DNA of 27,252 bases from a virus: positions 1-27,252 of the IMG/VR virus record IMGVR_UViG_3300008966_000005, one strand, 5' to 3'. Both the position numbers and the translations under genes were made by a program. Every line of letters begins with the position of its first letter. Position 1 is the stretch's first letter. This document shows positions 1 through 15,276 of the stretch, one piece after another. The notes under the pieces were generated by a model that saw only the letters and a program-made list of their open reading frames with translations, did no database searches and had not been told where the DNA came from.

Positions 1-2
1 AG

Positions 3-1097: not shown

Positions 1098-1137
1098 AGC
1101 ACAACGGCTTGATCAGCCATCAACTGAGGAAATGAAC

Positions 1138-1962: not shown

Positions 1963-1975
1963 TCGTTCATCAACC

Positions 1976-2002: not shown

Positions 2003-2019
2003 CACTCTAGGAGCAGCAC

Positions 2020-2202
2020 ATGAAGAAGGTCAAGACGTGGCGTGACATCAACGCCGAGCTGGTCGATGCGAACGAACAGCGGTGCAAGGAGATGCTCGAC
2101 GAGGAACGCAACGGCGAGAACCGCCAGCTCTTCGTCATCCGCATCTACGGTCGCTACGCGAAGCTCCGCGCCGCGCGCGAACGCAAGGAAATGAGGATCT
2201 GA
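2020..2202 (+). CDS. Small basic hypothetical protein
   Basis: This 60-residue, highly charged protein looks mostly helical (KTWRDINAELVDANEQRCKEM... then RAARERKE). No family is recognised. The start is well supported by AGGAG at 2009-2013, six bases before the ATG. The stop is two bases before the polymerase start at 2205, and the polymerase ribosome-binding site lies within this gene's last codons, so translation is probably coupled. It is likely a small accessory protein of the replication block, but function cannot be read from the sequence. Confidence 0.65.
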   Translation: MKKVKTWRDINAELVDANEQRCKEMLDEERNGENRQLFVIRIYGRYAKLRAARERKEMRI

Positions 2203-2204
2203 CC

Positions 2205-4082
2205 ATGCGCGCGCCGAGCGACGTAGTCACGATCGACTTCGAGACCGACGCCATCGAGCGTCGGCCGAAGTATCCGCCGCGCCCGGTCGGCGTGTCCATC
2301 ATCTATCCCGGCAAGAAGCCGGTCTATCGCGCATGGGCTCACCCGGAAGGGAACAACACTGACTTCGCCACGGTGAAGCGCGAGCTGCGCGACATCGACC
2401 GCAGCGGCGCGCCGGTTCTGTTCCACAACGCGAAGTTCGACGTCGACGTGGCGCAGACGCACTGCGGCATGAAGCTCAGCGACTGGCGGCGCATCCACGA
2501 CACGATGTACCTGCTCTTCTTGGACGACCCGCACTCCAAGACGCTGTCGTTGAAGCCTTCCGCTGAGCGCCTGCTCGGCATGGTGCCGGCGGAGCGCGAC
2601 GCTGTCAGCGAGTGGCTCGTGCAGCAACGCATCATTCGCAGGAACCAGAAGGACGCCGGTGCGTACATCTCGCTCGCTCCCGGTGACCTGGTCGGTGAAT
2701 ACGCGAACGGTGACACGCTACGCACGCTCAAGCTCTTCAAGATGCTGTTCCCGCAGATCACGGCGAACGGCATGGGCGCAGCGTACGACCGCGAGCGTGA
2801 GCTCATGCCGATCCTGCTCGAGAACGAGCGTCGCGGCGTTCGCATCGACGTGGCTCTTCTCGAGCACGACATCGGCGTGTACCGGAAGGCGATGCAGGTC
2901 GTTGAGCAGTGGCTCCGCAAGGAACTCACGCGGCTGGGAGCCAGTGCCAGCGACCTGAACTTCGACAGCGACCGCGACGTCGCCGCCGCGCTGCGCGACT
3001 CGGGCGTCGTGACCGACTTCGTGCAGACCGCTACCGGTCAGGACTCAGTATCCAAGAAGAACCTGACTCCCGGCATGTTCAACGACGCTCGCATCGCGTC
3101 GGCGCTCGGCTATCGCAATCGCCTGTTCACCTGCCTCGGCACGTTCATGGAGCCGTGGCTCGCGATGGCCAGTGCCAACGGAGGCTTCATCCACACGAAC
3201 TGGAATCAGGTTCGGCAGATGAGCGACAGCGGCAGCGGTGCCGGCGCGCGTACCGGGCGCATGTCGTGCAGCCCGAACTTCATGAACATTCCGAAGTCGT
3301 TCGAGGACAAGGGAGACGGGTACGTGCATCCGCGACACCTGCGCGCGCTGCCGGAGCTGCCTCGCATTCGGAAGTACGTGCTCGCCGACGATCATCGCTC
3401 GGTGTTCCTGCACCGCGATTTCAATCAGCAGGAGCTGCGCATCCTCGGTCACTACGAGGACGGTCGCTTGATGGAGGCATACCAGCAGCAGCCGCGCCTC
3501 GACGTCCACGACTTCGTTCGCGATCTCATCAAGGACGTGGCGAACGTTACGCTGGAGCGCCGCGCCGTCAAGATCCTGAACTTCGGCATGATCTACGGCA
3601 TGGGCGCGGGCGCGCTCGCCGCCGGCCTCGGCTGCTCGGTGCAAGAAGCACGCGAGATTCGTGGTCTGCACCAGAAGGCGCTGCCCGACGTGAAGCGTCT
3701 CGAGGAGAGCATCAAGCGCGGCGCGAAGGCCGATCAGCCGATCAGGACGTGGGGCGGACGCGTGTACTACACCGAGCCGCCGATCATGCACAATGGTCGT
3801 ATGCTCCACTTCGAATACAAGCTCCTGAACTACCTGATTCAGGGAAGTGCGGCGGACTGCACGAAGCAGGCTGTCATCAACTACCATCACGCGCGCAAGG
3901 AAGGCAGGTTCCTCGTGACGGTCCACGACGAAATCAACATCAGCGCGCCGACGAAAGCGCACAAGTCCGAGATGCGTATTCTGCGCGAAGCGATGTGCGA
4001 CGTCGACTTCGATGTTCCCATGGCCAGCGACGGCAAGTTCGGGCCGTCGTGGGGCTCCCTGAGCAAGTTCGAGGAGAAGTGA
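2205..4082 (+). CDS. DNA polymerase, family A, with 3'-5' exonuclease domain
   Basis: This is the phage replicative DNA polymerase (625 residues), with an N-terminal proofreading domain and a C-terminal Pol I-type polymerase domain. Exonuclease residues are present: D11 and E13 (IDFETD), D79 (HNAKFD), Y166 and D170 (YANGD). Polymerase motif A is at D405 (RDFNQQELR). Motif B has R452, K456 and F460 (RRAVKILNFG), and motif C is H574-D575-E576 (TVHDE). All catalytic residues look intact. F460 corresponds to E. coli Pol I Phe762, as opposed to the Tyr of T7 polymerase. The start at 2205 is chosen because GAGG lies about eight bases upstream and the previous gene stops at 2202; the longer in-frame extension back to 2082 would overlap that gene. 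There is no 5'-3' exonuclease domain. If the phage DNA is modified, this enzyme must accept the modified template. Confidence 0.95.
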   Translation: MRAPSDVVTIDFETDAIERRPKYPPRPVGVSIIYPGKKPVYRAWAHPEGNNTDFATVKRELRDIDRSGAPVLFHNAKFDVDVAQTHCGMKLSDWRRIHDTMYLLFLDDPHSKTLSLKPSAERLLGMVPAERDAVSEWLVQQRIIRRNQKDAGAYISLAPGDLVGEYANGDTLRTLKLFKMLFPQITANGMGAAYDRERELMPILLENERRGVRIDVALLEHDIGVYRKAMQVVEQWLRKELTRLGASASDLNFDSDRDVAAALRDSGVVTDFVQTATGQDSVSKKNLTPGMFNDARIASALGYRNRLFTCLGTFMEPWLAMASANGGFIHTNWNQVRQMSDSGSGAGARTGRMSCSPNFMNIPKSFEDKGDGYVHPRHLRALPELPRIRKYVLADDHRSVFLHRDFNQQELRILGHYEDGRLMEAYQQQPRLDVHDFVRDLIKDVANVTLERRAVKILNFGMIYGMGAGALAAGLGCSVQEAREIRGLHQKALPDVKRLEESIKRGAKADQPIRTWGGRVYYTEPPIMHNGRMLHFEYKLLNYLIQGSAADCTKQAVINYHHARKEGRFLVTVHDEINISAPTKAHKSEMRILREAMCDVDFDVPMASDGKFGPSWGSLSKFEEK

Positions 4083-4083
4083 G

Positions 4084-4767
4084 ATGCCTTCCACCTTCAC
4101 GTCGTGGTCGTTCAGCCGATACAGTGACTGGGCTCGCTGCCCGCTGTTCGCGAAGCTCAAGCATCTGGACAAGATGCCGACCAGCGCGAGCCCCGCCATG
4201 GCGCGCGGCGGCGAGATCGCCAAGCTCGGCGAGAACTTCCTCAAGGGAGCGCTGCGTACGCTGCCGGCGGAACTCAAGCCGCTAGGCGAGGACTTCAAGT
4301 TCCTGAAGAAGCAGAAGACCAAGTTCGTCGAGGAGCAGTGGGGATTCGACCGCGAATGGCTCCCGGTGGCGTGGAACGACTGGGATCGTTGCTGGCTCCG
4401 CGTGAAGGTGGACGTCGGCTACGTGGATGGCCACGTCGTTCACATCCGCGACGCCAAGACCGGCAAGATGCGCGAGGAGAAGAACGAGGAGTACCTGCTC
4501 CAGCTCGACCTGTACGTCGCAGCCGGTGCCACGCAGTTCCCCGACGCGAAGCAGTTCACTTCTCAGCTCCTGTACACCGACATGGGAGTTCGCTTCCCGG
4601 AGAAGGCACCGGTCACCGTGTCGCGCGCGGCGGCGCTCAAGCGACAGGCCGAGTGGAACAAGCGCGTGAAGCCGATGTTCAACGACCGCAAGTTCGTGGC
4701 GCGTCCCGGCTTCTACTGTCGGTGGTGCGACTTCAGCAAGTCCAAGGGTGGACCGTGCAAGTACTGA
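4084..4767 (+). CDS. Cas4/RecB-like PD-(D/E)XK nuclease with 4Fe-4S cysteines
   Basis: This 227-residue protein is a single-domain exonuclease of the PD-(D/E)XK superfamily. The nuclease core is visible as VDVGYVDG, then IRDAKTGK (the D...(D/E)xK part), then LLQLDLY, the Q-x(3)-Y motif of RecB/Cas4 nucleases. One cysteine near the N-terminus (C19, in WARCPLF) and three near the C-terminus (C212, C215, C225, in CRWC...PCKY) form the usual 4Fe-4S clamp of Cas4, AddB and Dna2. It probably processes DNA ends for recombination or replication. GGAG overlapping the end of the polymerase gene gives a good ribosome-binding site. Phage Cas4-like nucleases are often found beside polymerase and helicase genes. 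There is no CRISPR array here. Confidence 0.85.
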   Translation: MPSTFTSWSFSRYSDWARCPLFAKLKHLDKMPTSASPAMARGGEIAKLGENFLKGALRTLPAELKPLGEDFKFLKKQKTKFVEEQWGFDREWLPVAWNDWDRCWLRVKVDVGYVDGHVVHIRDAKTGKMREEKNEEYLLQLDLYVAAGATQFPDAKQFTSQLLYTDMGVRFPEKAPVTVSRAAALKRQAEWNKRVKPMFNDRKFVARPGFYCRWCDFSKSKGGPCKY

Positions 4768-4768
4768 C

Positions 4769-5122
4769 ATGAGCATCAGCGAGAAGCGACACGTAGAGAA
4801 CCCGTGCGTCAAGGAGGCGAAGAACCTCGGCGTGCGGGTCCTGAAGCTCAACACGATGGGGAACCGCTCGTGGCCTGACCGGTGCTTCTGGATTCCTGGC
4901 GGGAAGCCGCTGATCATCGAGTTCAAGAAGCCGGGCGAGAAGCCGACTCCGTTGCAGCGAGACACCATCGACTACCTCATTCGCATCGGATACGACGTCC
5001 ATGTCATCGACACGAAAGAACAAGGCATCGCGCTCATCCGGGATCGACTGGCTGCCGCGCGCGTACATGAAGCGAGCGGTGAAGTGGCTCGTGGAGCACG
5101 CCGCCGCAGGACTGTTCCTTGA
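4769..5122 (+). CDS. VRR-NUC domain nuclease
   Basis: This 117-residue stand-alone VRR-NUC protein belongs to the PD-(D/E)XK class often linked to Holliday-junction or flap cleavage. Visible motif residues are E10, D37 (WPDR), E51 and K53 (IIEFKKPG) and Q63 (PLQ), followed by a helix and GYDVHVID. Phages commonly carry this gene directly before an SNF2-type helicase, as here. The ATG at 4769 follows the previous stop by one base; its Shine-Dalgarno is weak, and an in-frame GTG at 4748 is an alternative. The last 40 residues (basic, RGARRRR) are read from DNA that also codes for the start of the helicase in another frame, an unusually long overlap (5001-5122). Confidence 0.85.
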   Translation: MSISEKRHVENPCVKEAKNLGVRVLKLNTMGNRSWPDRCFWIPGGKPLIIEFKKPGEKPTPLQRDTIDYLIRIGYDVHVIDTKEQGIALIRDRLAAARVHEASGEVARGARRRRTVP

Positions 5123-6449
5123 TCCGGGTCTCGGCAAGACCAGCATCACGCTCGCGGCCATCACCATGTTGAAGGAGGCCGGCGTGCTCGATCGCGTGCT
5201 CGTGGTCGCGCCGCTGCGCGTCTGCTATCTGGTATGGCCGGCGGAGATGGAGAAGTGGAACGATTTCTCGCACCTGCGTTGCGCAGTGCTGCACGGCAAG
5301 GACAAGACCGAGGCGATGCTGCGCCGTAGAGACGTCGACGTCTTCTTGATCAACCCGGAGGGTCTCGAGTGGCTCTTGACGAAGAGCCGTTGGAAGGCGC
5401 TCGGCGTGGACACGCTCGTGCTCGACGAGAGCTCGAAGTTCAAGAACTCGAAGACGCAGCGGTTCAAGAAGCTGAAACCGTACCTGACTCGGTTTCGCCG
5501 CCGCTGGATTCTCACGGGTACGCCGGCTTCCAACGGTCTACTGGACTTGTTCGGGCAGGTCTACGTCATGGACACCGGGCGCGCGCTCGGCCGGTTCATC
5601 ACGCACTATCGCAACAAGTTCTTCGATCGCACCGGGTTCGGTGGATTTTCGTGGCGCGTGCGCGAGGGCGCTGAGGAGGAGATCTACGCCGCGCTGCGAC
5701 CGTACGTGCTGCGCCTGAGCGCGGAGGAGTACCTGACGCTTCCCGCGCTCACGACGATCAACATCAAGGTGCAGCTCCCCGAGAAGGCTCGCCGCGTGTA
5801 CGACGAAATGGAGGCGGACTTGTTCAGCATCGTCAGCGGCGACAGAACGCTGCGCGCGCCGAACGTGGCGTCGTCGGTGAACAAGTGCCGACAGATCGCG
5901 AACGGGTTCGCGTACTGGACCGACGACACCGACCCAGACGACACTCGCAAGCGAAAGATGGAGTCCGTAGACATCCACGACGCGAAGATCGAGGCAGTGC
6001 GCGAACTCGTCGACGAGCGCAACGGCAAGCCGACCATCGTCGTCTACGAGTTCGCCGAAGACCTGCGCAGGCTGCGCAAGGAGTTCGGCAAGGACGTTCC
6101 CACGCTGAGCGGCAACATGCGCCAAGTCGCGGAGGTCGAACGAGCGTGGAACGCGGGCGAGCTGCCGCTGCTGTTCTTGCAGCCGCAGAGCGCCGGCCAC
6201 GGGTTGAACTTGCAGAAGGCCGGCGATACGATGATCTGGCTGTCGCCGATCTGGGACTTCGAACTGTACGACCAGACCATCAAGCGAATCCATCGACAAG
6301 GGACCAAGCATCAGGCAATTTTCGTGTACCATGTTGTCGCCACCGACACCGTTGACGAGGCAGTCGTCGTGGCTCTGAAGAGAAAGCGTAACGTCCAGAA
6401 TCGGCTGTTCGACGCGTTGTCCACCTATCGCAGGAGTAAGGGAAAATGA
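5001..6449 (+). CDS. SNF2-type DNA helicase/ATPase
   Basis: This superfamily 2 helicase of SNF2/RAD54 type has about 482 residues. Counted from the ATG at 5001, Walker A is DPGLGKT (G45-K46-T47), motif II is D142-E143 (LDESS), motif III is LTGTP (171-175), and motif VI is QTIKRIHRQG (425-434, with R429 and R432). Motif V is seen as SAGHGLNLQ. It should be a double-strand DNA translocase used in replication, recombination or remodelling. The start is uncertain. ATG 5001 has no clear Shine-Dalgarno, and conserved sequence begins near residue 19; ATG 5067 would trim the N-terminal strand of domain 1. The gene overlaps the VRR-NUC gene by up to 122 bases and ends in an ATGA overlap with the glycosyltransferase gene. 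Confidence 0.9.
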   Translation: MSSTRKNKASRSSGIDWLPRAYMKRAVKWLVEHAAAGLFLDPGLGKTSITLAAITMLKEAGVLDRVLVVAPLRVCYLVWPAEMEKWNDFSHLRCAVLHGKDKTEAMLRRRDVDVFLINPEGLEWLLTKSRWKALGVDTLVLDESSKFKNSKTQRFKKLKPYLTRFRRRWILTGTPASNGLLDLFGQVYVMDTGRALGRFITHYRNKFFDRTGFGGFSWRVREGAEEEIYAALRPYVLRLSAEEYLTLPALTTINIKVQLPEKARRVYDEMEADLFSIVSGDRTLRAPNVASSVNKCRQIANGFAYWTDDTDPDDTRKRKMESVDIHDAKIEAVRELVDERNGKPTIVVYEFAEDLRRLRKEFGKDVPTLSGNMRQVAEVERAWNAGELPLLFLQPQSAGHGLNLQKAGDTMIWLSPIWDFELYDQTIKRIHRQGTKHQAIFVYHVVATDTVDEAVVVALKRKRNVQNRLFDALSTYRRSKGK

Positions 6450-7777
6450 AGAAGTTGAAAATCATGTTCGCGGTGCCGGAGGGCGAGGACATGGGCGGCA
6501 TCATCTCCTCAAGCGAGAACCTCATGGCCGGCTTCAAGGAGCTCGGCCATAGCGTGACGTTCGCGCGCGTTCGCAGCATCCCGTCGCTCGCGCACACTGG
6601 CCGTCCGGACCGCGAGAACATCCGCGAGGAAGACTGGTCGATCGGCGAGGGTAGCGGCTACGACTTCCATCCGGTGCAGGGATGGGCGGGACCGTACTAC
6701 TCCATGACGAACAGCGCGAGCGTGGACAAGTTCATCGCCGATGCGCAGCAGCACGACGTCGTCGTGTGGATCGCGATGTACGGGTTCGCGAACAACCGCA
6801 CCGAGGGGACCACCGACTGGACGCGGATGCTGACCGGCCACGGTGTTCCGCAAGTCGCGTTCAACCACGACGATCATCTGTGGACGCGTCAGGCGTGGAG
6901 CTGCGTCTTCGACGACTACGTCGCGGGATGGGCCGGCGTGCAGCACTGCTCGTTCGACTCGCTGAAAGGCATGAAGTCGCCGCGAGCGATGATCTCGCCG
7001 GGGCACGACATGTCGCGCCTCGTCAAGAACCCGCTGCCGCTCGGCAAGCGCGATCGCACGATGCTGAGCTTGCAGGTCGCGAAGTCGTGGAAGAAGGTGG
7101 ACAAGCTCGTCGCCGCCGTTCCGTACATCCGCGACGCGAAGGTCCTGCTCGGCGGCGACGGTATCGAGCTGCGGTACATGCGGAGCAAGGAGAAGTGCAA
7201 GCCTCGCTATCTCTGCACGCCGACGGTCGACCCCGACGCGACCGCGAAGATGCGCGGGAAGCGGATCTGGGACAACGCGACCGCGTCCAAGAACTTCGAG
7301 TACGTCGGCACCATGTCCGAGGAGCGCCGCGACCAGCTCATGCGCAAGACGACGCTGCTCGTGGACCTCTCCACGCGCGCGAACAGCGGCCAGCTCAACC
7401 GCGTGGTCGTCGAGTCGATGATGGCCGGTACCGTCGTGGTCGCCGTCCCCGACTTCCTGTCCGGCGTGCGCCGCGAGACACCGTTCGTGCCGGGTACGCA
7501 CTACCTGCCGATCGACAGCGGCGGCACTCCGCGTGAGATCGCGGAGACGCTGAACTCCTACATGAGCATGTCGCCGAAGGAGTTCCGCCGCATCCAGAGC
7601 AACGCGACCGAGCTGATCCAGCAGTACGACAGGAAGCTCGGCGCGCAGCACCTCATCGATCTGGCGCTGCGCCCGAGCAAGAAGGCGGGTATGGCGTACG
7701 CCAAGGGAGCGCCGAACGAAGAGCTGCTCGAGAAGGGTCGCAAGGACTTCGCCACCATGTTCGGAGAAATGCCGTGA
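6446..7777 (+). CDS. GT-B fold glycosyltransferase, GT4-like
   Basis: This 443-residue protein has the layout of a GT-B glycosyltransferase. The N-terminal Rossmann-like half starts MKKLKIMFAVPEGEDMGG and continues to a Gly-rich acceptor loop. The C-terminal donor-binding half contains FEYVGTMSEERR, LLVDLSTR, and NRVVVESMMAGTVVVAV, whose Glu is the usual contact for the nucleotide-sugar ribose. It would move a sugar from an NDP-sugar to an acceptor that the sequence does not identify. Its ATG overlaps the helicase stop (ATGA), and its stop overlaps the GTG of the radical SAM gene. Together with the thymidylate synthase homologue and hypermodification protein downstream, the best inference is glycosylation of a hydroxymethyl pyrimidine in phage DNA. 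Glycosylation of a host or virion surface molecule is the alternative. Confidence 0.8.
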   Translation: MKKLKIMFAVPEGEDMGGIISSSENLMAGFKELGHSVTFARVRSIPSLAHTGRPDRENIREEDWSIGEGSGYDFHPVQGWAGPYYSMTNSASVDKFIADAQQHDVVVWIAMYGFANNRTEGTTDWTRMLTGHGVPQVAFNHDDHLWTRQAWSCVFDDYVAGWAGVQHCSFDSLKGMKSPRAMISPGHDMSRLVKNPLPLGKRDRTMLSLQVAKSWKKVDKLVAAVPYIRDAKVLLGGDGIELRYMRSKEKCKPRYLCTPTVDPDATAKMRGKRIWDNATASKNFEYVGTMSEERRDQLMRKTTLLVDLSTRANSGQLNRVVVESMMAGTVVVAVPDFLSGVRRETPFVPGTHYLPIDSGGTPREIAETLNSYMSMSPKEFRRIQSNATELIQQYDRKLGAQHLIDLALRPSKKAGMAYAKGAPNEELLEKGRKDFATMFGEMP

Positions 7778-8748
7778 GCGCCGTCGCCAAAGACATGATC
7801 GTTCCGATCTTCAACCAGATCTGCATCGAGACGAGCGCGCTCTGCAATCGCAAGTGCGTGTTCTGCCCGAACTTCTCCACTGCTCGGCCCGACGAGCAGA
7901 TGAGCTGGGACCTCATCAAGAAGATGGTGGCCGAGCTGCGCGAGATGAAGTACACGGGCTCGGTGGCGAACTTCATCTACAACGAGCCGTTCCGCGATCC
8001 GCGCGCGCTGGACATCATTCGGCACTTCGCGAGCGAGCTGCCGCGCGCCACCATCCACACGAGCACGAACTGCGACTACTTCAAGTCCAAGAAGGACATC
8101 GCGGACGCGTTCGACGCTGGTGTTCACACCATGGTCTGCAACATCTACTCGGCGGCCGACGGTGGCAGCGATCCCAAGAAGGTGGCGCGCGGCGTCGAGG
8201 CAGCGAGGAAGCGAGCCGATCAGGTGGAGCGCTGGCTCACGGAGCTCGGCGTGGACCAGAAGAGCTCGCCGTACGCACCTCGCGCTCCTCGTGGCGTGCG
8301 TATCGCGCGCGTCGAGCGGAAGTACGGCATCGCCGGCGGTACGAAGAAGCTCGGCTCGTTCGAGCTCCAGAACCGCTCGGGGAACATCGAGCACATTCTC
8401 GGCGGCACCACCGAGCCGCTCGAGAAGATGTGCGTGCGCCCGTGGCGCGTGCTCAACATCAACTGGACCGGACAGGCGATCATCTGCTGCAACGACTATC
8501 ACGGAGCCACGAATTTCGGCAACGTGGCGGAGCGTACGCTGTCGGAGATCTGGCAGCATCCTGGCTTCGGCGTGTATCGCCTGATGCTCCAGAACAAGAA
8601 CAGGAACATCGCGATGTGCGACACGTGCGATTACAAGGGAGGCTCGTATCCGCACATGATCAAGCGCGTGACGCTCGGCAGCGAGGAGCTCGACAACGAG
8701 TTCGTGAGGAAGACCGCCGCGCGCCACGCCAAGACCAAGGGGAAGTGA
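7774..8748 (+). CDS. Radical SAM enzyme with SPASM-like C-terminal domain
   Basis: This 324-residue enzyme has the radical SAM signature CxxxCxxC at C24, C28 and C31 (CNRKCVFC), which holds the 4Fe-4S cluster that cleaves S-adenosylmethionine. A second cysteine set fits a SPASM/twitch domain with an auxiliary cluster: C220 (MCVRPW), C238-C239 (IICCND) and C282/C285 (CDTC). The segment NINWTGQAIICCND followed by GNV and LSEIW is typical of SPASM enzymes. The start is GTG 7774, supported by GGAG at 7763-7766 and the GTGA overlap. Known SPASM enzymes modify peptides, sugars or small molecules. Here it lies between a glycosyltransferase and a base hypermodification protein, so it may act on a sugar or on the modified base. 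The substrate is unknown. Confidence 0.9.
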   Translation: MSAVAKDMIVPIFNQICIETSALCNRKCVFCPNFSTARPDEQMSWDLIKKMVAELREMKYTGSVANFIYNEPFRDPRALDIIRHFASELPRATIHTSTNCDYFKSKKDIADAFDAGVHTMVCNIYSAADGGSDPKKVARGVEAARKRADQVERWLTELGVDQKSSPYAPRAPRGVRIARVERKYGIAGGTKKLGSFELQNRSGNIEHILGGTTEPLEKMCVRPWRVLNINWTGQAIICCNDYHGATNFGNVAERTLSEIWQHPGFGVYRLMLQNKNRNIAMCDTCDYKGGSYPHMIKRVTLGSEELDNEFVRKTAARHAKTKGK

Positions 8749-8749
8749 C

Positions 8750-9595
8750 ATGAAGCCGCTGCCACTGAAGAACATCGACCGGTTCCACCGATTCATCAAG
8801 GAGCGGCACGCCATCTATCAGCGGCGCTCGGCCGGAGCCCCGAAACCGTGGACTCGTGACGAGATCCTTCAGAGCTTTCGTTTCTGCAACGTGTTCCGCG
8901 AGCTGGACACGGTCACGGAATGGATTCGCGTGAATTGGCGCGACCCGAACACGAGCGACCCGGATCTGTTCTTCGCGATGTCGGTGGCTCGCGTCTTCAA
9001 CCGCACCTGCACGCTCGACGTCATCGGGTACCCGGTGCCGTGGAAGCCTGAGCGGGCGTTCTCTCGAATCAGCGCATTCCGTGCAGCGGGACACGCGGTA
9101 TTCACGGGAGCGTACATGGTGAGTACGAACGGCACGAAGAAGGATAAGGTTGAGTACGTCATCGAGAACGTGCTCAACCCGTTGTGGAAGCAGCGCCATC
9201 AAGTGCGCCCATTCGCCGGCGATACGCTGGTCGGGTTCTCGCAGCGGCTCATCGAGCAGAACGGGTTCAAGGGATTCATGGCCGGTCAAGTCACGTGCGA
9301 CGTGAAGTACGCCGAAGGGAGCCACCTGCGGCACGCCGAAGACTGGTGGAGCTTCGCTGTCAGCGGTCCGGGCAGTCGTCGCGGTCTGAATCGCGTAGTG
9401 GGTAGAGGACTTCGTGAGCCGTGGCGCGAGCACGTATGGCACGAGGTTCTGATGCGCCTGCACGAGCGGACACCGGAAGTGCTCGGCGAGCCGCTCCACG
9501 CTCAGGACCTGCAGAACTGTCTCTGCGAGTTCGACAAGTACGAACGCGTTCGCCTCGGTGAAGGTCGTCCGCGCTCACGCTATCCCGGTGTCTAA
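8750..9595 (+). CDS. DNA base hypermodification protein, HMUDK_hel/alphaGPT-PPlase-like
   Basis: This 281-residue protein matches, from memory, the conserved pattern of the helical domain shared by 5-hmdU DNA kinases and alpha-glutamyl/putrescinyl thymine pyrophosphorylases. The N-terminal RHAIYQRR plus PWTRDEIL block is followed by FRFCNVFRELDTVTEWI, then GPGSRRGL, and near the end QNCLCEFDKYERV. That group is predicted to have a DNA-glycosylase-like helix-hairpin-helix fold and to act on hydroxymethyl or pyrophosphoryl-oxymethyl pyrimidines in DNA after replication. I see no P-loop (GxxxxGKS/T), so this is not a complete kinase. It lies one base after the radical SAM gene and 19 bases before the thymidylate synthase homologue. 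It is the strongest sign that this island modifies DNA bases. Confidence 0.75.
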   Translation: MKPLPLKNIDRFHRFIKERHAIYQRRSAGAPKPWTRDEILQSFRFCNVFRELDTVTEWIRVNWRDPNTSDPDLFFAMSVARVFNRTCTLDVIGYPVPWKPERAFSRISAFRAAGHAVFTGAYMVSTNGTKKDKVEYVIENVLNPLWKQRHQVRPFAGDTLVGFSQRLIEQNGFKGFMAGQVTCDVKYAEGSHLRHAEDWWSFAVSGPGSRRGLNRVVGRGLREPWREHVWHEVLMRLHERTPEVLGEPLHAQDLQNCLCEFDKYERVRLGEGRPRSRYPGV

Positions 9596-9614
9596 TTCAT
9601 AACGAGGAATTGTC

Positions 9615-10643
9615 ATGATTGTCCAGAAAGTGCGAAATGTGAGCGAAGCTCTGAAACTTGGGCTGTCGCTTGCTCTCGAGATTGGCGTACCGCGCGGGAC
9701 TCGCAACGGCACCGTCTTGCGAATCCCCGAGCCGGTGACCACGGTCTACCAGCGTCCTGATGAGCGAGTGCTGGTGAACGGTCCGCGCAACGCGAACCCG
9801 TTCTTCCACTTCTTCGAATCGTTGTGGATGCTGGCCGGTCGCAATGACGTCGAGTACGTCGCGCGCTACGTGAAGCGTATGCGGCAGTTCTCCGACGACG
9901 GCACCACGCTCCACGGAGCCTACGGATGGCGCTGGCGTGGCGGGCTCGGTGCCGATCAGATTCGCGTCGTCGTGGACCTGCTGCGAAAAGACCCGAGCAC
10001 GCGGCGCGCGGTCATCGCGATGTACGACGCCATGGAGGACGCGAGCGAGCTGTCGAGAAGTCGCGACATTCCCTGCAATACGCACATCTATTTCGACGTG
10101 ACCGAGTCGATGCACCTGAACATGACGGTCTGCTGCCGCAGCAACGACATCGTCTGGGGAGCGTTCGGCGCGAACGCTGTTCACATGAGCGTGCTCCACG
10201 AGTACGTCGCAGCCTGCACCGGCCTGCCGATGGGCGTGTACCGCCAGATGAGCAACGACCTGCACCTGTACACTCACGTCGTGAGCCGCGAGCAGGCTGC
10301 GCGCATCGTGGCCGCGTGCGACACCGAAGACGTCTACTCGGCACCGCTGCCGCGCATGGTGCCGCTAAGACCGGCGGGGACGCCGCGCGAACAGTTCATG
10401 GATCTGTTCGAACACGAGGTACATCGCGTGATCGGTACGCCGGTGGACCAGGTCATGAAGGACCGCGAGCTTCGACTTCCGTTTTTCAGAGACGTTGCTG
10501 CGCCGATGCACGACTCGTGGAGGCAGTACAGGAGCGGCGACATGAAAGAAGCGATGTACGAAGCACTCCGCATTCAGGCTGACGACTGGCGTGCTGCCTG
10601 TCTTCAGTGGCTCGGCAACCGTTGCAAGAAGGAGCTCGTGTAA
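9615..10643 (+). CDS. Thymidylate synthase homologue, probable dUMP/dCMP hydroxymethylase
   Basis: This 342-residue protein belongs to the thymidylate synthase superfamily. The catalytic nucleophile is C154 in IPCNTH (PCN rather than the usual PCH), and the phosphate/base-binding block is RSND...GAFGANAVH (R175, D178, N187, H190), with a Tyr-containing segment near SNDLHLY. An ungapped comparison with E. coli TS around YGxxWR (Y103) places M89 and F92 where TS has Trp80 and Trp83. These tryptophans guard the methylene intermediate, so their loss fits hydroxymethyl transfer instead of methylation. The base-specificity Asn is kept but may be shifted by one residue, so dUMP against dCMP is open. 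GAGGA at 9604-9608 supports the start. Ordinary dTMP synthesis cannot be excluded. Confidence 0.85.
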   Translation: MIVQKVRNVSEALKLGLSLALEIGVPRGTRNGTVLRIPEPVTTVYQRPDERVLVNGPRNANPFFHFFESLWMLAGRNDVEYVARYVKRMRQFSDDGTTLHGAYGWRWRGGLGADQIRVVVDLLRKDPSTRRAVIAMYDAMEDASELSRSRDIPCNTHIYFDVTESMHLNMTVCCRSNDIVWGAFGANAVHMSVLHEYVAACTGLPMGVYRQMSNDLHLYTHVVSREQAARIVAACDTEDVYSAPLPRMVPLRPAGTPREQFMDLFEHEVHRVIGTPVDQVMKDRELRLPFFRDVAAPMHDSWRQYRSGDMKEAMYEALRIQADDWRAACLQWLGNRCKKELV

Positions 10644-11116
10644 TGAAGGCGAACGATACGCAGGTCGGCGGTCTGCACTATCGCACCGGCTATCAGCACT
10701 GGGACTTCGTGATTGAGCACCTCGAGAACCGCTATCTCGAGGGGCAGATCACGAAGTACGTGACGCGGTGGCGGCGCAAGAACGGGCTCCAAGACTTGAT
10801 GAAGGCCTCGCACTTCCTCGTCAAGCTCATCGAGGCTGTCCAGATGCGGCGCGTGCATCCCATCGGCTCGCGGTTCGTCCACGCCGGTCGTGGCGTACGT
10901 GCGTTCATCGCCGACAACCGACTGGACCCGAACGAGGCGCAGCTCGTGCGTCTACTGGCGTCGTGGGAATCGCTCGACGAACTGCGCGAGGCGCAGGGAG
11001 TGCTCGGCGTACTGTTGGAGGATGCGCAGCGGCACGAGCGTCGGCTGGACGCGATCAAGGCTGGCGCATCGCCCGACGCCGAACCGGGCGCAGGCTACGT
11101 GAACCAGGACCGCTGA
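10643..11116 (+). CDS. DUF3310 protein, related to the conserved domain of T7 gp1.7
   Basis: The first 60 residues of this 157-residue protein are a clear DUF3310 domain: DTQVGGLHY, then HWDFVIEHL, then QITKYVTRWRRKNGLQDLMKA. T7 gp1.7, which carries this domain, is a nucleoside monophosphate kinase acting on dGMP and dTMP. The remaining 95 residues are helical, without recognised motifs. The start is firm: AAGGAG at 10629-10634 is eight bases upstream and the ATG overlaps the previous stop (TAATG). Following directly after a thymidylate synthase homologue, it could phosphorylate the normal or hydroxymethylated dNMP, which is an inference. DUF3310 proteins are also common in phages without modified DNA. 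Confidence 0.8.
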   Translation: MKANDTQVGGLHYRTGYQHWDFVIEHLENRYLEGQITKYVTRWRRKNGLQDLMKASHFLVKLIEAVQMRRVHPIGSRFVHAGRGVRAFIADNRLDPNEAQLVRLLASWESLDELREAQGVLGVLLEDAQRHERRLDAIKAGASPDAEPGAGYVNQDR

Positions 11117-11126
11117 GGAACTGGCC

Positions 11127-12107
11127 ATGAGCAATCGTGGACGCGTTCTGGTGACTGGCGGCTGCGGCTACGTCGGCAGTCACGTGGTGAAGCAGCTCGT
11201 CGAGGCTGGCGAAGACGTGGTCGTAGTCGACGACCTGAGTACTGGCTTCGCCGAGTCGTTGCTCGGCGGCTATCCGGTGTTCGCCGACTGCGGTGACTCG
11301 GAGTTCATGCGCGACGTGCTGGTGGACTACCGCGTGGATACCGTCATGCATCTGGCGGCGAAGATCGTCGTGCCCGAGTCGGTGTTCTCGCCGCTGCGGT
11401 ACTACGGTGCGAACACCTGCACTTCGCGCAGACTGCTGGAGGCCTGCGTCTCTGCTCGCGTGGAGCGCGTGGTGTTCTCCTCTACGGCATCGGTCTACGG
11501 CGACGTGCCGAATGGCGTCGCCAGCGAGGACACTCCCACGGCACCGAGCAACCCGTACGGGCGCTCCAAACTCATGACGGAGTGGATGCTGCGCGATGCT
11601 GCCGTGGCGCACGATCTGCGGTACGTGGCGCTACGCTACTTCAACGTCGCCGGTGCCGACCCCGAGGCGCGCATCGGTCAGCGCACGAAGACCGCCACGC
11701 ACCTCATCAAGCGCGCTTGCGAAGTAGCGGCTGGCAAGAGCGACCAGCTCGGCATCTTCGGCACCGACTACGACACGCCAGACGGTACCGCTGTCCGCGA
11801 CTACATACACGTCGAGGACATCGCGAGCGCTCACCTCGCTGCTCTGGCGTACCTGCGCGACGGCGGCAGCAGCGAGGTCTTGAACTGCGGCTACGGGCGC
11901 GGCGCGTCGGTGAGGCAGGTCATCGCAGCAGTGGAGCGCGCGCATGGCGCTCCGCTACGCACGGTCAACGCGGGACGGCGCGCTGGCGACGTGCCGTACC
12001 TCGTTGCGCGTGCTCAGCGCATCGTCGACGTCCTAGGCTGGGAACCGCAGCACGCGGACCTAGATCACATCTGCAGAACCGCACTCGCATGGGAGCACAG
12101 GGTGTGA
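11127..12107 (+). CDS. galE: UDP-glucose 4-epimerase-like NAD-dependent sugar epimerase
   Basis: This 326-residue extended short-chain dehydrogenase/reductase has the NAD-binding motif TGGCGYVG (G11, G14, G17), a Ser/Thr block SSTASVYG and the catalytic Y144xxxK148 (NPYGRSK). It also has the GalE-specific stretches FNVAGADPE and TPDGTAVRDYIHVED. The length matches bacterial GalE (about 330-340). It interconverts UDP-glucose and UDP-galactose or a close pair of UDP-sugars in the cytoplasm. Within this island it most likely supplies the sugar donor for the glycosyltransferase at 6446. GAGGA at 11115-11119, seven bases upstream, supports the start. The gene's stop overlaps the cupin start. Family is sure; exact sugar is not. 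Confidence 0.9.
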   Translation: MSNRGRVLVTGGCGYVGSHVVKQLVEAGEDVVVVDDLSTGFAESLLGGYPVFADCGDSEFMRDVLVDYRVDTVMHLAAKIVVPESVFSPLRYYGANTCTSRRLLEACVSARVERVVFSSTASVYGDVPNGVASEDTPTAPSNPYGRSKLMTEWMLRDAAVAHDLRYVALRYFNVAGADPEARIGQRTKTATHLIKRACEVAAGKSDQLGIFGTDYDTPDGTAVRDYIHVEDIASAHLAALAYLRDGGSSEVLNCGYGRGASVRQVIAAVERAHGAPLRTVNAGRRAGDVPYLVARAQRIVDVLGWEPQHADLDHICRTALAWEHRV

Positions 12108-12586
12108 AGAGCATCTGGCAACGACTGACGAACTGGATCTATGCGCAGGCGCTTCTTCGCGTGGCGCTCAATCGGCCACCGGACTACGTCGTGGGCGGCG
12201 ACGACCCGTACCTGTACCGCTGGTGGATCATCCCGAGGAACAGGTTCTTCAACGTGTACCTACACCAGTTCATTCGCAGCGACGACGATCGCGCGCTGCA
12301 CGATCACCCGTGGGTCTGGTGCTCGTGGATGCTGGCCGGCACGTACACCGAGCATCGCATCGCCGCTGGCGGCATCCACGTGCGACGCACCTATACGGCG
12401 GGAGCGGTGCGATGCGCGCTGCCGAGCACTGCGCACCGGCTGGAAGTGGAGCGCGGCTGCTGGACCTTGTTCTTCACGGGACCTGTAGTGCGGGACTGGG
12501 GATTCCACTGTCCCGGCGGCTGGCGGCACTGGCGCGTCTTCACAGACGAGAAGGATTCGAGCAGGGTAGGTCGCGGATGTGACTGA
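12104..12586 (+). CDS. Cupin-like phage protein
   Basis: This 160-residue protein has the cupin fold pattern: a first metal-binding motif with H66 and H68 (RALHDHPW), E83 (TYTEHR) and a later histidine, H111 (TAHRLEVE), followed by WTLFFTGP and WGFHCPGGWRHW. The histidines suggest a bound Fe or Zn ion. The family is widespread in phages and bacteria and its reaction is not known to me. GTG 12104 is chosen because GGGAG at 12091-12095 is eight bases upstream and it gives a GTGA overlap with the epimerase stop; an in-frame ATG at 12089 is the alternative. As the last gene of the unbroken run, it may belong to the modification island, for example as a sugar isomerase or oxygenase. Confidence 0.75.
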   Translation: MKSIWQRLTNWIYAQALLRVALNRPPDYVVGGDDPYLYRWWIIPRNRFFNVYLHQFIRSDDDRALHDHPWVWCSWMLAGTYTEHRIAAGGIHVRRTYTAGAVRCALPSTAHRLEVERGCWTLFFTGPVVRDWGFHCPGGWRHWRVFTDEKDSSRVGRGCD

Positions 12587-12608
12587 AAACAGGGACTTTC
12601 TGCGATGA

Positions 12609-12638
12609 TTGCCTCTTCAGGGAAAGAGCCTGTATAAT
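12609..12638 (+). promoter_or_regulatory. Sigma70-type promoter
   Basis: TTGCCT (12609-12614) and a perfect TATAAT (12633-12638), preceded directly by TG, are 18 bases apart. Transcription would begin near 12645, just upstream of the lysine-rich protein gene. This is the best promoter in the window, and its AT-rich -10 stands out in GC-rich DNA. The in-frame ATG at 12637 overlaps the -10 and so is not a start codon. Confidence 0.8.
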
Positions 12639-12645
12639 GAACGGA

Positions 12646-12663
12646 CCGGCGAATCGTCGCCGG
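12646..12663 (+). promoter_or_regulatory. 5' UTR hairpin at the predicted transcript start
   Basis: CCGGCGA (12646-12652) pairs exactly with TCGCCGG (12657-12663) across a 4-base loop. It would sit at the very 5' end of the mRNA made from the 12633 promoter and could protect it from 5' decay. The gene's Shine-Dalgarno (GGAG, 12678-12681) stays outside the stem. Confidence 0.45.
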
Positions 12664-12687
12664 CCAACCCAAGCACTGGAGAACACC

Positions 12688-13137
12688 ATGACCAAGTCCA
12701 CGAAGTCCACCGCCAAGGCTGCTGCGAAGAAGACCACCGCGAATAGCGCGCCGGCGAAGAAGGCGGAGCCGGTCGTGACGACCGAGCGCGTGGCGAGGCT
12801 GACGCCGACCGCTGCCGCGAACGTGAACGCCACCGTGAAGTCCGGCCTGAAGACCGGCCAGAAGCCGGTCGAGGCCGACGAGCCGCGTGGCAAGAAGACC
12901 GCGACGAAGAGCGCGTCGCCCAAGAAGGCCGACAGCGGCAGCACGCGCGGCGGTGACCAGAAGTACAGGGTCCTGTCCAAGGAGAACCCGTTCCGCGAAG
13001 GCACCGGTCGTCACGGTGCGTGGAAGATCCTGTCCAAGCACACGAGCACCGCTGCGGTCCGCGCCGAGAGCGCGCTCTACGGCACCGCTGTCTTCTTCCG
13101 CGAGCTCGAGAAGCGCGGCCTCATCAAGTTCGTGTGA
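12688..13137 (+). CDS. Lysine/alanine-rich protein with small C-terminal domain
   Basis: This 149-residue protein has a long low-complexity tail rich in Lys, Ala, Thr and Ser (residues 1 to about 90, for example STAKAAAKKTT and KKTATKSASPKK), like histone H1-type tails. A compact, conserved-looking domain follows at about 92-149 (KYRVLSKENPFREG to REKRGLIKF-like end). The tail suggests nucleic-acid binding, while the C-terminal domain is not recognised. The ATG at 12688 has GGAG six bases upstream. It is a single-gene unit with its own strong promoter and terminator, so it is likely made in large amounts. A DNA-coating or transcription-related role is an inference only. Confidence 0.7.
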   Translation: MTKSTKSTAKAAAKKTTANSAPAKKAEPVVTTERVARLTPTAAANVNATVKSGLKTGQKPVEADEPRGKKTATKSASPKKADSGSTRGGDQKYRVLSKENPFREGTGRHGAWKILSKHTSTAAVRAESALYGTAVFFRELEKRGLIKFV

Positions 13138-13157
13138 CGCGAAACGTTCTGCTCCGC

Positions 13158-13204
13158 AACGGGTCGCCCGTTGCCTTGAACCCGGCCCCGCGCCGGGTTC
13201 TTTT
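13158..13204 (+). terminator. Rho-independent terminator with a second small hairpin before it
   Basis: GAACCCGGC (13178-13186) pairs with GCCGGGTTC (13192-13200) across a 5-base loop and is followed by TTTT (13201-13204), a classic intrinsic terminator. Just upstream, AACGGG and CCCGTT (13158-13172) form a smaller hairpin. It ends the lysine-rich protein transcript. Confidence 0.85.
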
Positions 13205-13215
13205 GCCTGCGATTT

Positions 13216-13230
13216 GCGCAGGCCTCGGCG
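13216..13230 (+). repeat. 15-bp direct repeat, copy 1 (GCGCAGGCCTCGGCG)
   Basis: The 15-mer GCGCAGGCCTCGGCG occurs here and again, identically, at 14926-14940. Both copies are in gene-free DNA, and together they bracket the tandem array and the two genes at 13581-14577. The flanking bases differ between copies. Confidence 0.7.
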
Positions 13231-13238
13231 CTCGCACT

Positions 13239-13434
13239 CGGCTGCACCTGTAGCGGCTGCACCTGTAGCGGCTGCACCTGTATCGGCTGCACCTGTATCG
13301 GCTGCACCTGTAGCAGTCTGCACCCGCCTGTAGCGGCTGCACCTGTAGCAACCTGCACCCGCCTGTAGCGGCTGCACCTGTAGCAGCCTGCGCCCGTACC
13401 ACCGGCACGCGCCGCGCCTGTAGCGTGACAGGCG
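13239..13434 (+). repeat. 15-bp tandem repeat array with 20-bp variants, ending in a hairpin
   Basis: The unit CGGCTGCACCTGTAG is repeated head to tail at 13239, 13254, 13269, 13284 and 13299, with the last base T in two copies. It recurs at 13334 and 13369, alternating with 20-bp variants at 13314 and 13349 that share CTGCACCCGCCTGTAG. Units are nearly perfect. The array runs into a degenerate end where CGCCTGT (13415-13421) pairs with ACAGGCG (13428-13434). A further partial unit, CGGCTGCACC, lies at 13469. There are no unique spacers, so it is not a CRISPR array. Because 15 is a multiple of 3, both strands stay open in several frames, but no convincing gene covers it. It occupies most of the 443-bp gap 13138-13580 and may be a protein-binding array or a replication-related iteron. 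Confidence 0.85.
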
Positions 13435-13491
13435 ATCGCTGGGAGCTTGTTTTCAGCACTGCGGCGCTCGGCTGCACCGCTGCTCGCGCGC

Positions 13492-13533
13492 TTGCAGCGA
13501 TGTGAAAGATGCTACGATGGCTCTGCCATCGTA
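13492..13533 (+). promoter_or_regulatory. Possible promoter with overlapping operator-like palindrome
   Basis: TACGATGGC (13513-13521) and its exact reverse complement GCCATCGTA (13525-13533) flank a 3-base centre. TACGAT could act as a -10 with TTGCAG (13492-13497) as a -35, but the spacer is only 15 bases. The palindrome could be an operator or a small terminator-like hairpin. It lies 48 bases before the gene at 13581. Confidence 0.35.
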
Positions 13534-13580
13534 ACCCGGTGGCAGCGGCACCGACGACCCCAACACTAGGAGCAGACAAC

Positions 13581-14060
13581 ATGAACACCACGAAGACTCG
13601 CACCACCGTTCGCAACGTGCCGGCCCTGCGCGCCAACATCCGCACCATGCGTCGCGACCTCCACGACGTGACCGCGCTGCGCGAGACACTCAGCCGCGCC
13701 ATGCTGCTCACGAAGAAGGAGGCCGACGAACTCGCCGCGTCCCTCGGCCCGAGCTTCACCACCGTGAACATTCTCGGCGGCACCATCGTGTGTTCGCACT
13801 ACCTGCGCCACGAAGTGCTCTGGATGCTGCGCACCGCGTCGCGGTCGTACAGTCGCATCATGGAGCCGATCTGGCGCGAGATCCACGACGCCGAGGAGGC
13901 CGACTCGTGCTTCGATCACGGCGAATGGTCCGACGAGTTCCACGACAAGCGTCGCAACCGCGAAGACGAACGTGTCAGCGCCATGATCGCCGCGAAGTTC
14001 GGCATCACCGCTGGCGACCTGTACGCGGCCACACTGCGCCGCGCCAACAACGACCTTTGA
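13581..14060 (+). CDS. Hypothetical protein, charged and helical
   Basis: This 159-residue protein is rich in Arg, Glu and Asp, with probable long helices (ALRANIRTMRRDLHDV, EADELAASLG) and a His/Cys/Asp-containing middle (SCFDHGEW). No family is recognised. The ATG at 13581 is set by AGGAG at 13568-13572, eight bases upstream; the open frame to the left as far as 13509 runs through the palindrome and is unlikely to be translated. The bases from its ribosome-binding site into codon 4 (13568-13591) are identical to those of the next gene, so the two may share regulation or come from one duplicated module. Confidence 0.65.
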   Translation: MNTTKTRTTVRNVPALRANIRTMRRDLHDVTALRETLSRAMLLTKKEADELAASLGPSFTTVNILGGTIVCSHYLRHEVLWMLRTASRSYSRIMEPIWREIHDAEEADSCFDHGEWSDEFHDKRRNREDERVSAMIAAKFGITAGDLYAATLRRANNDL

Positions 14061-14085
14061 ACAGCACTCACCAGGAGCAGACAAC

Positions 14086-14577
14086 ATGAACACCACCGAC
14101 AACGTGAACACCGACCGTACCAACCCGTTCAGCACGATGGGCGCGTACGTCGCGTCGATCATCAATCGGACAGGCGTCACTGCGAACGACACGAACCGCG
14201 ACTTGTTCTTCACCGCGCTGGCTCGCGGTCTGGCGCAGTCCTCGCTGAACGCCATCGTCGAGCATCTCGGCACGAGTACGCTGAGCGACGCGATCAGCAC
14301 CGTGGACTCGCCGCGACTGGAGCGCGTACTGAAGAACTTGGCTCGCGAGTGGGAGCCGGAGGAATGGGCTCGCATGAACTCTGAGTTCAAAGACTGGCTC
14401 ATCGAGCACGACGAAGCCGAAGTCGACGATGCGCGCGACTCGTCCGCTACCGAAGCGAACGAGCAGACCACGCACGACGTGGAGGCCTGTCTGGACCGCG
14501 CGAACGAGTTGACCAGTGGCATCGAGCAGCTCGCACAGGAGCTGGGGGAACTGCGCGACAGGCTGCGCGACGAATGA
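14086..14577 (+). CDS. Hypothetical acidic protein
   Basis: This 163-residue acidic protein begins MNTTDNVNTDRT and has a helical core (LFFTALARGLAQSSLNAIVEHLG). It ends in an acidic, coiled-coil-like segment (CLDRANELTSGIEQLAQELGELRDRLRDE region). No family is recognised. The start is supported by AGGAG at 14073-14077, nine... bases' distance comparable to its neighbour, and by the shared 24-base initiation region. It follows the previous gene by 25 bases, so they form a two-gene unit. It is the last + strand gene before the convergent intergenic region. Confidence 0.65.
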   Translation: MNTTDNVNTDRTNPFSTMGAYVASIINRTGVTANDTNRDLFFTALARGLAQSSLNAIVEHLGTSTLSDAISTVDSPRLERVLKNLAREWEPEEWARMNSEFKDWLIEHDEAEVDDARDSSATEANEQTTHDVEACLDRANELTSGIEQLAQELGELRDRLRDE

Positions 14578-14606
14578 CCTGTACCGCACCGCGCTCCACG
14601 TGACAC

Positions 14607-14636
14607 CATCGCGCCGGCCTCAGTGCCGGCGCGATG
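14607..14636 (+). terminator. 12-bp perfect hairpin, probable end of the + strand transcript
   Basis: CATCGCGCCGGC (14607-14618) pairs exactly with GCCGGCGCGATG (14625-14636) across the loop CTCAGT. The following bases are CGTTTAG, a weak U tract. It lies 30 bases after the last + strand stop. Its very stable stem could also slow transcription from the opposite side. Confidence 0.7.
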
Positions 14637-14675
14637 CGTTTAGGGCTCGCTGCACGCCCGCTGGCGCTGGCCGCT

Positions 14676-14737
14676 GGCAGGCCGGTACAGGCGCACCGGG
14701 CGTACCGGCCGGCAGGCCGGTACAGGCGCACCGGGCG
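14676..14737 (+). repeat. 27-bp direct repeat, two copies 35 bp apart
   Basis: The 27 bases at 14676-14702 (beginning GGCAGGCCGGTACAGGCGCA) are repeated exactly at 14711-14737, separated by TACCGGCC, itself near-palindromic. Each copy holds GGTACAGGCGC, close to the reverse complement of the CGCCTGTA motif in the array at 13239-13434. Confidence 0.8.
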
Positions 14738-14925
14738 CGTTAGCCGGTGCCAGCGGGCTCCCAGGGTCGTTACCCGGCTCGCAGGGCGATCGCAGGGGCT
14801 CGTTTGGCAGGGTACCCGGTACCTGCGCCAAGGGTACCCGGTCGTTATGGCCACCAGCGGTCGCCTAGCGAGCCAGCCGGTACGGGCGCACGGGCGCGCC
14901 TGTATAAGTACGCCGGCACCGGCTG

Positions 14926-14940
14926 GCGCAGGCCTCGGCG
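14926..14940 (+). repeat. 15-bp direct repeat, copy 2 (GCGCAGGCCTCGGCG)
   Basis: This is identical to 13216-13230. The distance between the copies is 1710 bases, and they enclose the tandem array, the two-gene unit and the 27-bp repeats. Confidence 0.7.
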
Positions 14941-14973
14941 GCTGGCCACTGGCGCAGCCGCGTTCTTCACCGC

Positions 14974-15276
14974 TCACCAGCGAATGCGCCCGACACGTGT
15001 CTCGTCGATGAGGCATCGTTCATGCGCGATCGCGCATTCACGACAGCGACGATACGTTCCCGAGCCGACGAGCACTGCATCGCCGACGTCGTCGGGATCG
15101 CCTTCGCCTTGATCGTCGACGGGAACAGCGGGCGCGAGCACGTCGGGACACTCACTGTCCGCGCACTTCTCGCACGTCAGTTTCGGTGGCGGCGGCTGCA
15201 TGACCCAAGGCTTCGTTGATGGCACGCATCCGGCCAGCAGGAACGCGACAGCCATTGGCAAGAGTCGAAAGTTCAT
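14974..15276 (-). CDS. Rz1-like outer-membrane lipoprotein (o-spanin)
   Basis: This 100-residue protein has a lipoprotein signal: MNFRLLPMAVAFLLAGC, with lipobox LAGC and the lipidated cysteine at residue 17. A proline-rich stretch follows (QPPPPK). It starts inside the 3' part of the Rz-like gene in another frame, the classic nested spanin layout (overlap 15152-15276). Paired with the inner-membrane Rz across the periplasm, it would fuse inner and outer membranes in the last step of lysis. It is longer than lambda Rz1, with a cysteine-rich tail (CEKC, CREC). AGGA about nine bases before the ATG supports the start. Confidence 0.8.
   Translation of the reverse strand: MNFRLLPMAVAFLLAGCVPSTKPWVMQPPPPKLTCEKCADSECPDVLAPAVPVDDQGEGDPDDVGDAVLVGSGTYRRCRECAIAHERCLIDETRVGRIRW

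Follow-up and report, generated by a model that had tools for sequence, protein, structure and literature searches.

The window, i.e. the whole 27,252-base IMG/VR virus record IMGVR_UViG_3300008966_000005, itself a fragment, carries a gene cassette that probably encodes a kinase-free, glycosyltransferase (GT) branch of phage thymidine hypermodification. It would be a variant of thymidine hypermodification rather than a categorically new system. The cassette comprises a ThyA-like enzyme, an HMUDK_hel protein, a GT-B enzyme and a BtrN-like radical S-adenosylmethionine (rSAM) enzyme, with a DUF3310 protein, GalE and a cupin-like protein downstream (Table 1).

Every catalytic step below is inferred, as are the identity of the sugar, its attachment at the level of DNA and the gain for the phage. 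The ThyA-like enzyme would convert dUMP to 5-hydroxymethyl-dUMP, which would enter DNA as 5-hydroxymethyl-deoxyuridine (5-hmdU). HMUDK_hel would bind 5-hmdU-containing DNA and present the base. The GT-B enzyme would take the place of the 5-hmdU DNA kinase and attach a sugar, supplied as a nucleotide sugar, to the 5-hydroxymethyl group; the result would be a base-J-like glycosyl-5-hmdU. The BtrN-like rSAM would carry out a two-electron oxidation at a hydroxyl of the attached sugar (or of the sugar in the donor), producing a keto-sugar or a derivative, and in its finished form the base should shield phage DNA from host nucleases. The joint pathway of an earlier, sequence-only reading (ThyA-made hydroxymethyl-pyrimidine, DNA-level glycosylation, radical tailoring) finds support in the comparative evidence.

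Exchange of kinase and glycosyltransferase

Relatives of HMUDK_hel in IMG/VR shared a recurrent gene order (PolA - nuclease - helicase - [variable] - HMUDK_hel - ThyA - DUF3310), the variable slot of which held a P-loop kinase or a GT. Among the 58 loci with ThyA in the deduplicated, HMUDK_hel-sampled set, 16 had a kinase, 41 a GT or GT candidate, none both, and one neither (its contig begins within ThyA); kinase and GT excluded each other with a Fisher p of 2e-13, relatedness ignored. The larger set of 111 HMUDK_hel plus ThyA loci, defined by a call for either partner and adding rSAM-derived, phage and genome-contig loci, contained 29 with a kinase, 82 with a GT or GT candidate and 0 with both. 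Most family assignments were made with profiles built from clustered loci, and with Pfam on representatives only. Parsimony on the HMUDK_hel tree required 18 partner swaps, at least 8 of them forced by well-supported branches, so that the exclusion is not one frozen accident. The cassette arrangement is likewise not due to chance, because it recurs in independent phages. The refutation that the sequence-only reading had named, genes never occurring together in related phages, was put to the test and did not hold.

TAGT was the commonest GT in the slot (PF20691; phrog_842, beta-glucosyl-HMC-alpha-glucosyltransferase), the others being a divergent TAGT-like group, the GT-B family of the window and a second GT-B-like family, GTB79, which matched the C-terminal part of the window GT (E 1e-5). 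A relationship of a further slot family, GTB26, to the window GT was unsupported (hhalign probability 0.2). The GT-type architecture was widespread in environmental phage contigs and outnumbered the kinase branch in this sample. The GT-type loci from the genome collection all lay on contigs of metagenome-assembled genomes, and a cultured isolate of this type was not identified.

The accessory genes followed the partner. Only loci with a kinase (PF18748 in the M6 type) contained the amino acid:DNA transferase (ADDT; PF18724; 16 loci), a pyridoxal phosphate (PLP) enzyme (8), the M6-type rSAM (8), a FAD gene (4) and an Nmad5-like gene (4), and neither the PF18724 transferase nor the PLP enzyme occurred in any of the 82 GT-type loci. 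Restricted to GTs were the BtrN-like rSAM (48/82) and sulfotransferase-like genes (5; L016, L023, L051, L140 and L141; in L051, Sulfotransfer_4 matched only weakly and below threshold). The sulfotransferase-like products may tailor the sugar further.

No 5-hmdU DNA kinase (PF18748) was found in the window or in all of G001, a 43-kb near-twin, with the same profile that finds the L015 positive control; ADDT, PLP enzyme and M6-type rSAM were also absent from both. A dCMP deaminase (PF00383), sought in the 43-kb relative, was not found. G001 matches the window over 1-15769 (mostly at 98-99.9%) and over 25091-27252 (97%), hence at either end, and therefore the two probably span one permuted genome of about 53 kb. 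Near-twin contigs were L007-L009. At the DNA level, the cassette matched named phages mainly in the ThyA region (65-75%), and PADLOC returned no match for the five cassette proteins tested.

Glycosyltransferase

The assignment of the first cassette gene to the GT-B glycosyltransferases held. Its match to Pfam Glycos_transf_1 was below the curated cut-off (E 6e-5), the 39% identical L094 relative passed that cut-off, and the AlphaFold model (pLDDT 82) matched GT-B sugar-nucleotide enzymes in Foldseek from E 4e-16, T4 DNA alpha-glucosyltransferase (AGT; E 1e-12), HepE, BshA and PimB' being among the matches. The family had 7 loci in the IMG/VR scan, remoter members in L141, L148 and the metagenome-assembled genome contigs L190 and L199, and zero members among 50,697 annotated phage records.

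Relatives of the window GT adjoined HMUDK_hel in L031, L059, L141, L148, L190 and L199. That all of them do so was rejected: in the T4-like contigs L094 and L095 the relatives (39-41% identity) directly followed a Tet_JBP dioxygenase (PF12851, E 1e-15, above cut-off), and HMUDK_hel and ThyA were not found near them. TET/JBP enzymes hydroxylate 5-methyl-pyrimidines in DNA; the GT family hence meets hydroxymethyl-pyrimidine DNA in two unrelated gene contexts, which argues for a DNA-level acceptor. In L094 (6568-11013), the gene next after the Tet_JBP gene and the GT relative matched GmrSD_N below the threshold.

Radical SAM enzyme

BtrN was the best PDB relative of the rSAM with the single sequence (E 5e-16), and with the family profile it matched over both the rSAM and the twitch domain (E 2.5e-35), far ahead of other structures. 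The window enzyme has C24/C28/C31 (CxxxCxxC) and then C220, C238/C239, C282 and C285; both cysteine sets occurred in 69/71 family members, and an Asn-Arg-x-Gly that aligns with BtrN was kept. The earlier label of radical SAM/SPASM is accurate in its first half; the second cysteine set is that of a one-cluster twitch domain as in BtrN, and a full seven-cysteine SPASM domain with two auxiliary clusters was rejected. On this sequence evidence, the enzyme is predicted to oxidise the transferred sugar or the donor sugar.

The family profile search placed the rSAM with a GT in 53/62 loci and with a kinase in 0/62. In L128, one uninterrupted 579-residue open reading frame (ORF; 3324-5063), situated between HMUDK_hel and ThyA, comprised TAGT (residues 1-257) and rSAM (268-579), both Pfam-confirmed, which ties the rSAM to the glycosyl step. 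The rSAM was missing from the other 34/82 GT-type loci, so that radical tailoring is optional in the GT-type family. None of the 50,697 annotated phage records contained a relative of the window rSAM; when a distant family member served as the query, the search reached the Campylobacter phages CP20, CPt10 and vB_CjeM_WX1 (hits H99-H102), two of the hits being annotated 'BtrN protein'.

ThyA-like enzyme and HMUDK_hel

The ThyA motif of the window, CRSNDIVWGAFGANAVH, has the dUMP-type Asn187, which aligns with the Asn of thymidylate synthase; the choice of Asn or Asp sets uracil or cytosine specificity in thymidylate synthase and T4 gp42. The motif was near-identical, with the same Asn, in M6-type phages (L003, L004; AN14), and every one of the 133 ThyA ORFs whose motif could be read had Asn, in the kinase branch as in the GT branch (collected loci, not deduplicated). 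The substrate is by this sequence criterion most likely dUMP and not dCMP, which narrows the earlier proposal of hydroxymethylation of either nucleotide to its first member while keeping the ThyA-made hydroxymethyl-pyrimidine.

HMUDK_hel was modelled as an all-helical protein (pLDDT 96.5; modelling run on loci only). It had been thought to act itself on hydroxymethylated bases in DNA; its swapping between kinase and GT, never with both, is better read as that of a DNA- or base-presenting partner common to the two. In a wider and more tentative reading, to which we give somewhat less than an even chance, HMUDK_hel would be a general 5-hmdU-DNA adaptor whose partner has been swapped repeatedly between kinases (amino-acid side chains) and GTs (sugars), the GT branch yielding base-J relatives in phages, with a sugar that the BtrN-like rSAM oxidises, i.e. 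DNA with keto-sugars or products derived from them.

HMUDK_hel relatives were also seen in other surroundings. In alphaproteobacterial and Haloferax contigs (L189:898-3077, L201:7851-10106, L192:7854-11590, L202:6384-8969) they adjoined a dCTP-deaminase-like (DCD) gene and/or that of an uncharacterised protein of ~185 residues, gene sets that are perhaps a nucleotide-targeting defence operon; PADLOC gave no match for the proteins tried from these contigs. Proteins 45-54% identical to the window HMUDK_hel occurred in eight IMG/VR records of ~100-460 kb (L013, L036, L040, L042, L047, L055, L067 and L076), in whose whole length neither thymidylate synthase nor TAGT was found; these may be cellular contigs or reflect another use of HMUDK_hel.

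Weighing of the evidence

Several points weigh against the favoured reading, which is drawn from gene content and comparative data. The loci are fragments with flanks of about 8-9 kb, and the 82 to 29 ratio of the larger set was enriched for GT by the rSAM-derived loci, with the kinase profile run on every locus. GTB26 (9 loci in the same slot) is a candidate GT family only, the BtrN-like rSAM was lacking in the 34 GT-type loci given above, and GalE occurred in 2/82. The TAGT-rSAM fusion was seen only once, and a frameshift in the assembly could have produced it from two neighbouring genes. The best PDB fold match of HMUDK_hel, a weak one (8z2n; E 0.046, probability 0.98, TM about 0.41), was PUGT, a phage 5-phosphomethyl-dU glycinyltransferase, followed by 8-oxoguanine glycosylases with non-significant E. 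The acceptor next to TET/JBP may be 5-hydroxymethylcytosine (5-hmC), and the acceptor of the window GT could be a free nucleotide or another compound.

In a cytosine version of the pathway, 5-hydroxymethyl-dCMP would be the product of the ThyA-like enzyme and 5-hmC the base glycosylated by the GT, as it is in T-even phages, where TAGT and AGT relatives act on 5-hmC DNA. The CMP hydroxymethylase MilA was indeed the best single PDB match of the ThyA-like enzyme, and the TET/JBP-associated GT relatives may serve 5-hmC, but MilA has Asp where the window has Asn187, the Asn is shared with 5-hmdU-making M6-type phages and all readable ThyA ORFs, and the constant neighbour HMUDK_hel is named for 5-hmdU; the cytosine version is thus unlikely. 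Glycosylation before incorporation, with GT and rSAM acting on 5-hmdU mono- or triphosphate and HMUDK_hel in another role, has a precedent in phage SP-15, which makes dihydroxypentyl-dU before DNA synthesis (PMC5977210). It is considered very unlikely, given that HMUDK_hel goes together with a DNA kinase in phages like M6 and weakly matches a DNA-acting transferase in fold, that the GT relatives beside TET/JBP would need to act on DNA, and that the GT resembles AGT among others.

A host-surface or virion glycan cassette (GT, rSAM, GalE, cupin) lying by chance beside a standard hydroxymethyl-dU operon is rated quite improbable: a GT or candidate never accompanied a kinase in 111 loci through at least 8 independent swaps, the rSAM was confined to GT loci, most slot GTs were TAGTs, relatives of DNA-modifying enzymes, and relatives of the window GT adjoined the TET/JBP dioxygenase. 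In its favour, ordinary sugar pathways also contain GalE, GT4-like enzymes and rSAMs like BtrN, AGT shares its place among the fold matches of the GT with HepE, BshA and PimB', and GalE and the cupin were not conserved with the core. That the window has the known kinase and amino-acid-transfer route, its kinase missing only through truncation of the record, is scarcely credible; the window is only a 27-kb fragment, but together with the 43-kb near-twin that overlaps both its ends it lacks kinase, ADDT, PLP enzyme and M6-type rSAM, the L015 control was found, and the 82 GT-type loci share the lack. The kinase-free GT branch of thymidine hypermodification remains the favoured reading.

Relation to known systems

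The 5-(2-aminoethyl)-dU pathway of Pseudomonas phages M6 and YuA comprises ThyA, the HMUDK_HMUD1 kinase, HMUDK_hel, ADDT, a PLP enzyme and a large rSAM. The window shares with it the active-site Asn and near-identical motif of ThyA, HMUDK_hel, a site near a family A DNA polymerase and, as predicted, a 5-hmdU intermediate, and differs from it in having a GT, in lacking kinase, ADDT and PLP enzyme, and in its BtrN-like twitch rSAM compared with the 480-residue type of M6. The claim of the sequence-only reading that the set departs from described thymidine pathways hence applies to the kinase, amino-acid transferase and PLP enzyme that it lacks; the mere presence of an rSAM is not what is new, since M6-like phages also carry one, from another family. 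M6, ViI and phiW-14 are thought to share a 5-hmdU intermediate that is phosphorylated in DNA (PMC6449724).

The predicted product, a sugar O-linked to 5-hmdU in DNA, resembles kinetoplastid base J (beta-D-glucosyl-5-hmdU). Base J arises by thymine hydroxylation in DNA (JBP1/2) followed by JGT, whereas the window ThyA would hydroxymethylate at the nucleotide level and the sugar would probably be tailored further. Glucosylation of 5-hmC in T-even phages (gp42, AGT, BGT, TAGT) likewise combines a ThyA-fold hydroxymethylase with a GT-B or TAGT DNA glycosyltransferase; the T4 system acts on cytosine and not uracil, and is not known to include HMUDK_hel or an rSAM. The di-glucosylation of cytosine seen in T6-like phages has been attributed to TAGT (PMC13390438). 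The phage TET/JBP plus GT systems (L094/L095) share relatives of the window GT and would hydroxylate in DNA by a dioxygenase instead of ThyA. BtrN of butirosin biosynthesis, with which both domains and the Asn-Arg-x-Gly of the window rSAM align, oxidises a free cyclitol, 2-deoxy-scyllo-inosamine; the window enzyme would act on the transferred or the donor sugar. Bacillus phage SP-15 resembles the prediction in a uracil-5 side chain carrying glucose, and differs in the five-carbon side chain (dihydroxypentyl-uracil), phosphoglucuronolactone and a different gene cluster (PMC5977210).

Parts of this pathway may already have been predicted in the literature, and priority is uncertain. Iyer et al. 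(2013) reportedly predicted many phage base-modification systems. A 2022 pelagiphage study described ThyA, aGPT-PPlase1 and a putative alpha-glucosyltransferase of the TAGT name-group in one region; 'radical SAM' did not appear in its text, and the passages concerned did not discuss absence of the kinase or kinase/GT exclusion (PMC9599517). Glucosylated 5-hmdU was unreported in phages according to a 2019 paper.

Relatives of the cassette are widespread in uncultured phages and appear to offer them a route to thymine hypermodification other than the well-studied one. The analysis offers a role for HMUDK_hel, puts forward candidate enzymes for the glycosylation of 5-hmU in DNA and predicts that radical chemistry takes place on a DNA-attached sugar. 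If true, such enzymes would be tools for 5-hmU labelling and candidates for evasion of restriction and CRISPR.

Gene layout and neighbouring genes

Every gene named in the sequence-only reading was present where it had been placed (ORF listing, family scans). The order, all on the + strand, was PolA, PD-(D/E)XK nuclease, SNF2 helicase, GT, rSAM, HMUDK_hel, ThyA-like, DUF3310, GalE and cupin-like. The genes had been described as tightly overlapping, which is right for most junctions (4 bases for helicase/GT, GT/rSAM and GalE/cupin, 1 base for ThyA/DUF3310) and wrong for three, with gaps of 1 (rSAM/HMUDK_hel), 19 (HMUDK_hel/ThyA) and 10 bases (DUF3310/GalE).

Table 1. Positions, family matches and predicted roles of the cassette genes and the adjacent helicase in the window.
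Feature	Position	Strand	Match and predicted role
SNF2-type helicase	5001..6449	+	Replication-module neighbour by conserved synteny; outside the chemistry
GT-B glycosyltransferase (GT), 443 aa	6446..7777	+	Predicted glycosylation of 5-hydroxymethyl-dU in DNA
Twitch-type radical SAM enzyme (rSAM), BtrN-like, 324 aa	7774..8748	+	Radical_SAM and SPASM matches; predicted oxidation of transferred sugar or its donor
HMUDK_hel / aGPT-PPlase1 protein, 281 aa	8750..9595	+	PF18723 (E 3e-43), phrog_2396; predicted 5-hmdU-DNA presenting partner
ThyA-like enzyme, 342 aa	9615..10643	+	phrog_5131 (E 5e-104); predicted dUMP 5-hydroxymethylase
DUF3310 protein	10643..11116	+	PF11753 (E 1e-5), phrog_5839; between ThyA and GalE
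GalE UDP-glucose 4-epimerase	11127..12107	+	TIGR01179 (415 bits, cut-off 262); possible, optional sugar-donor supply
Cupin-like protein	12104..12586	+	No family match; probably outside the modification pathway

The best start of DUF3310 was ATG 10643 and not GTG 10607, and the gene followed ThyA in most related loci, whichever the partner enzyme. GalE could be a source of UDP-galactose. The gene is real, with a TIGR01179 score above the cut-off, and the sugar supply earlier ascribed to it would be optional only, considering its rarity in GT-type loci and its loss in L008. In this near-twin about 186 bases were missing (window 11961-12142), with loss of the GalE 3' end and the cupin start and joining of the two frames; GalE and cupin look dispensable because the deletion hits both. 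The cupin-like protein had no Pfam, PHROG or NCBIfam match. It had been counted as part of the island and is probably unrelated to it: it was left out of the system because its relatives are spread over many phages (76 phage records, mostly of mycobacteriophages, some annotated 'cysteine dioxygenase').

Downstream of the modification module, a tandem repeat array with 15- and 35-base units (consensus CGGCTGCACCTGTAG...) occupied window positions 13239-13413.

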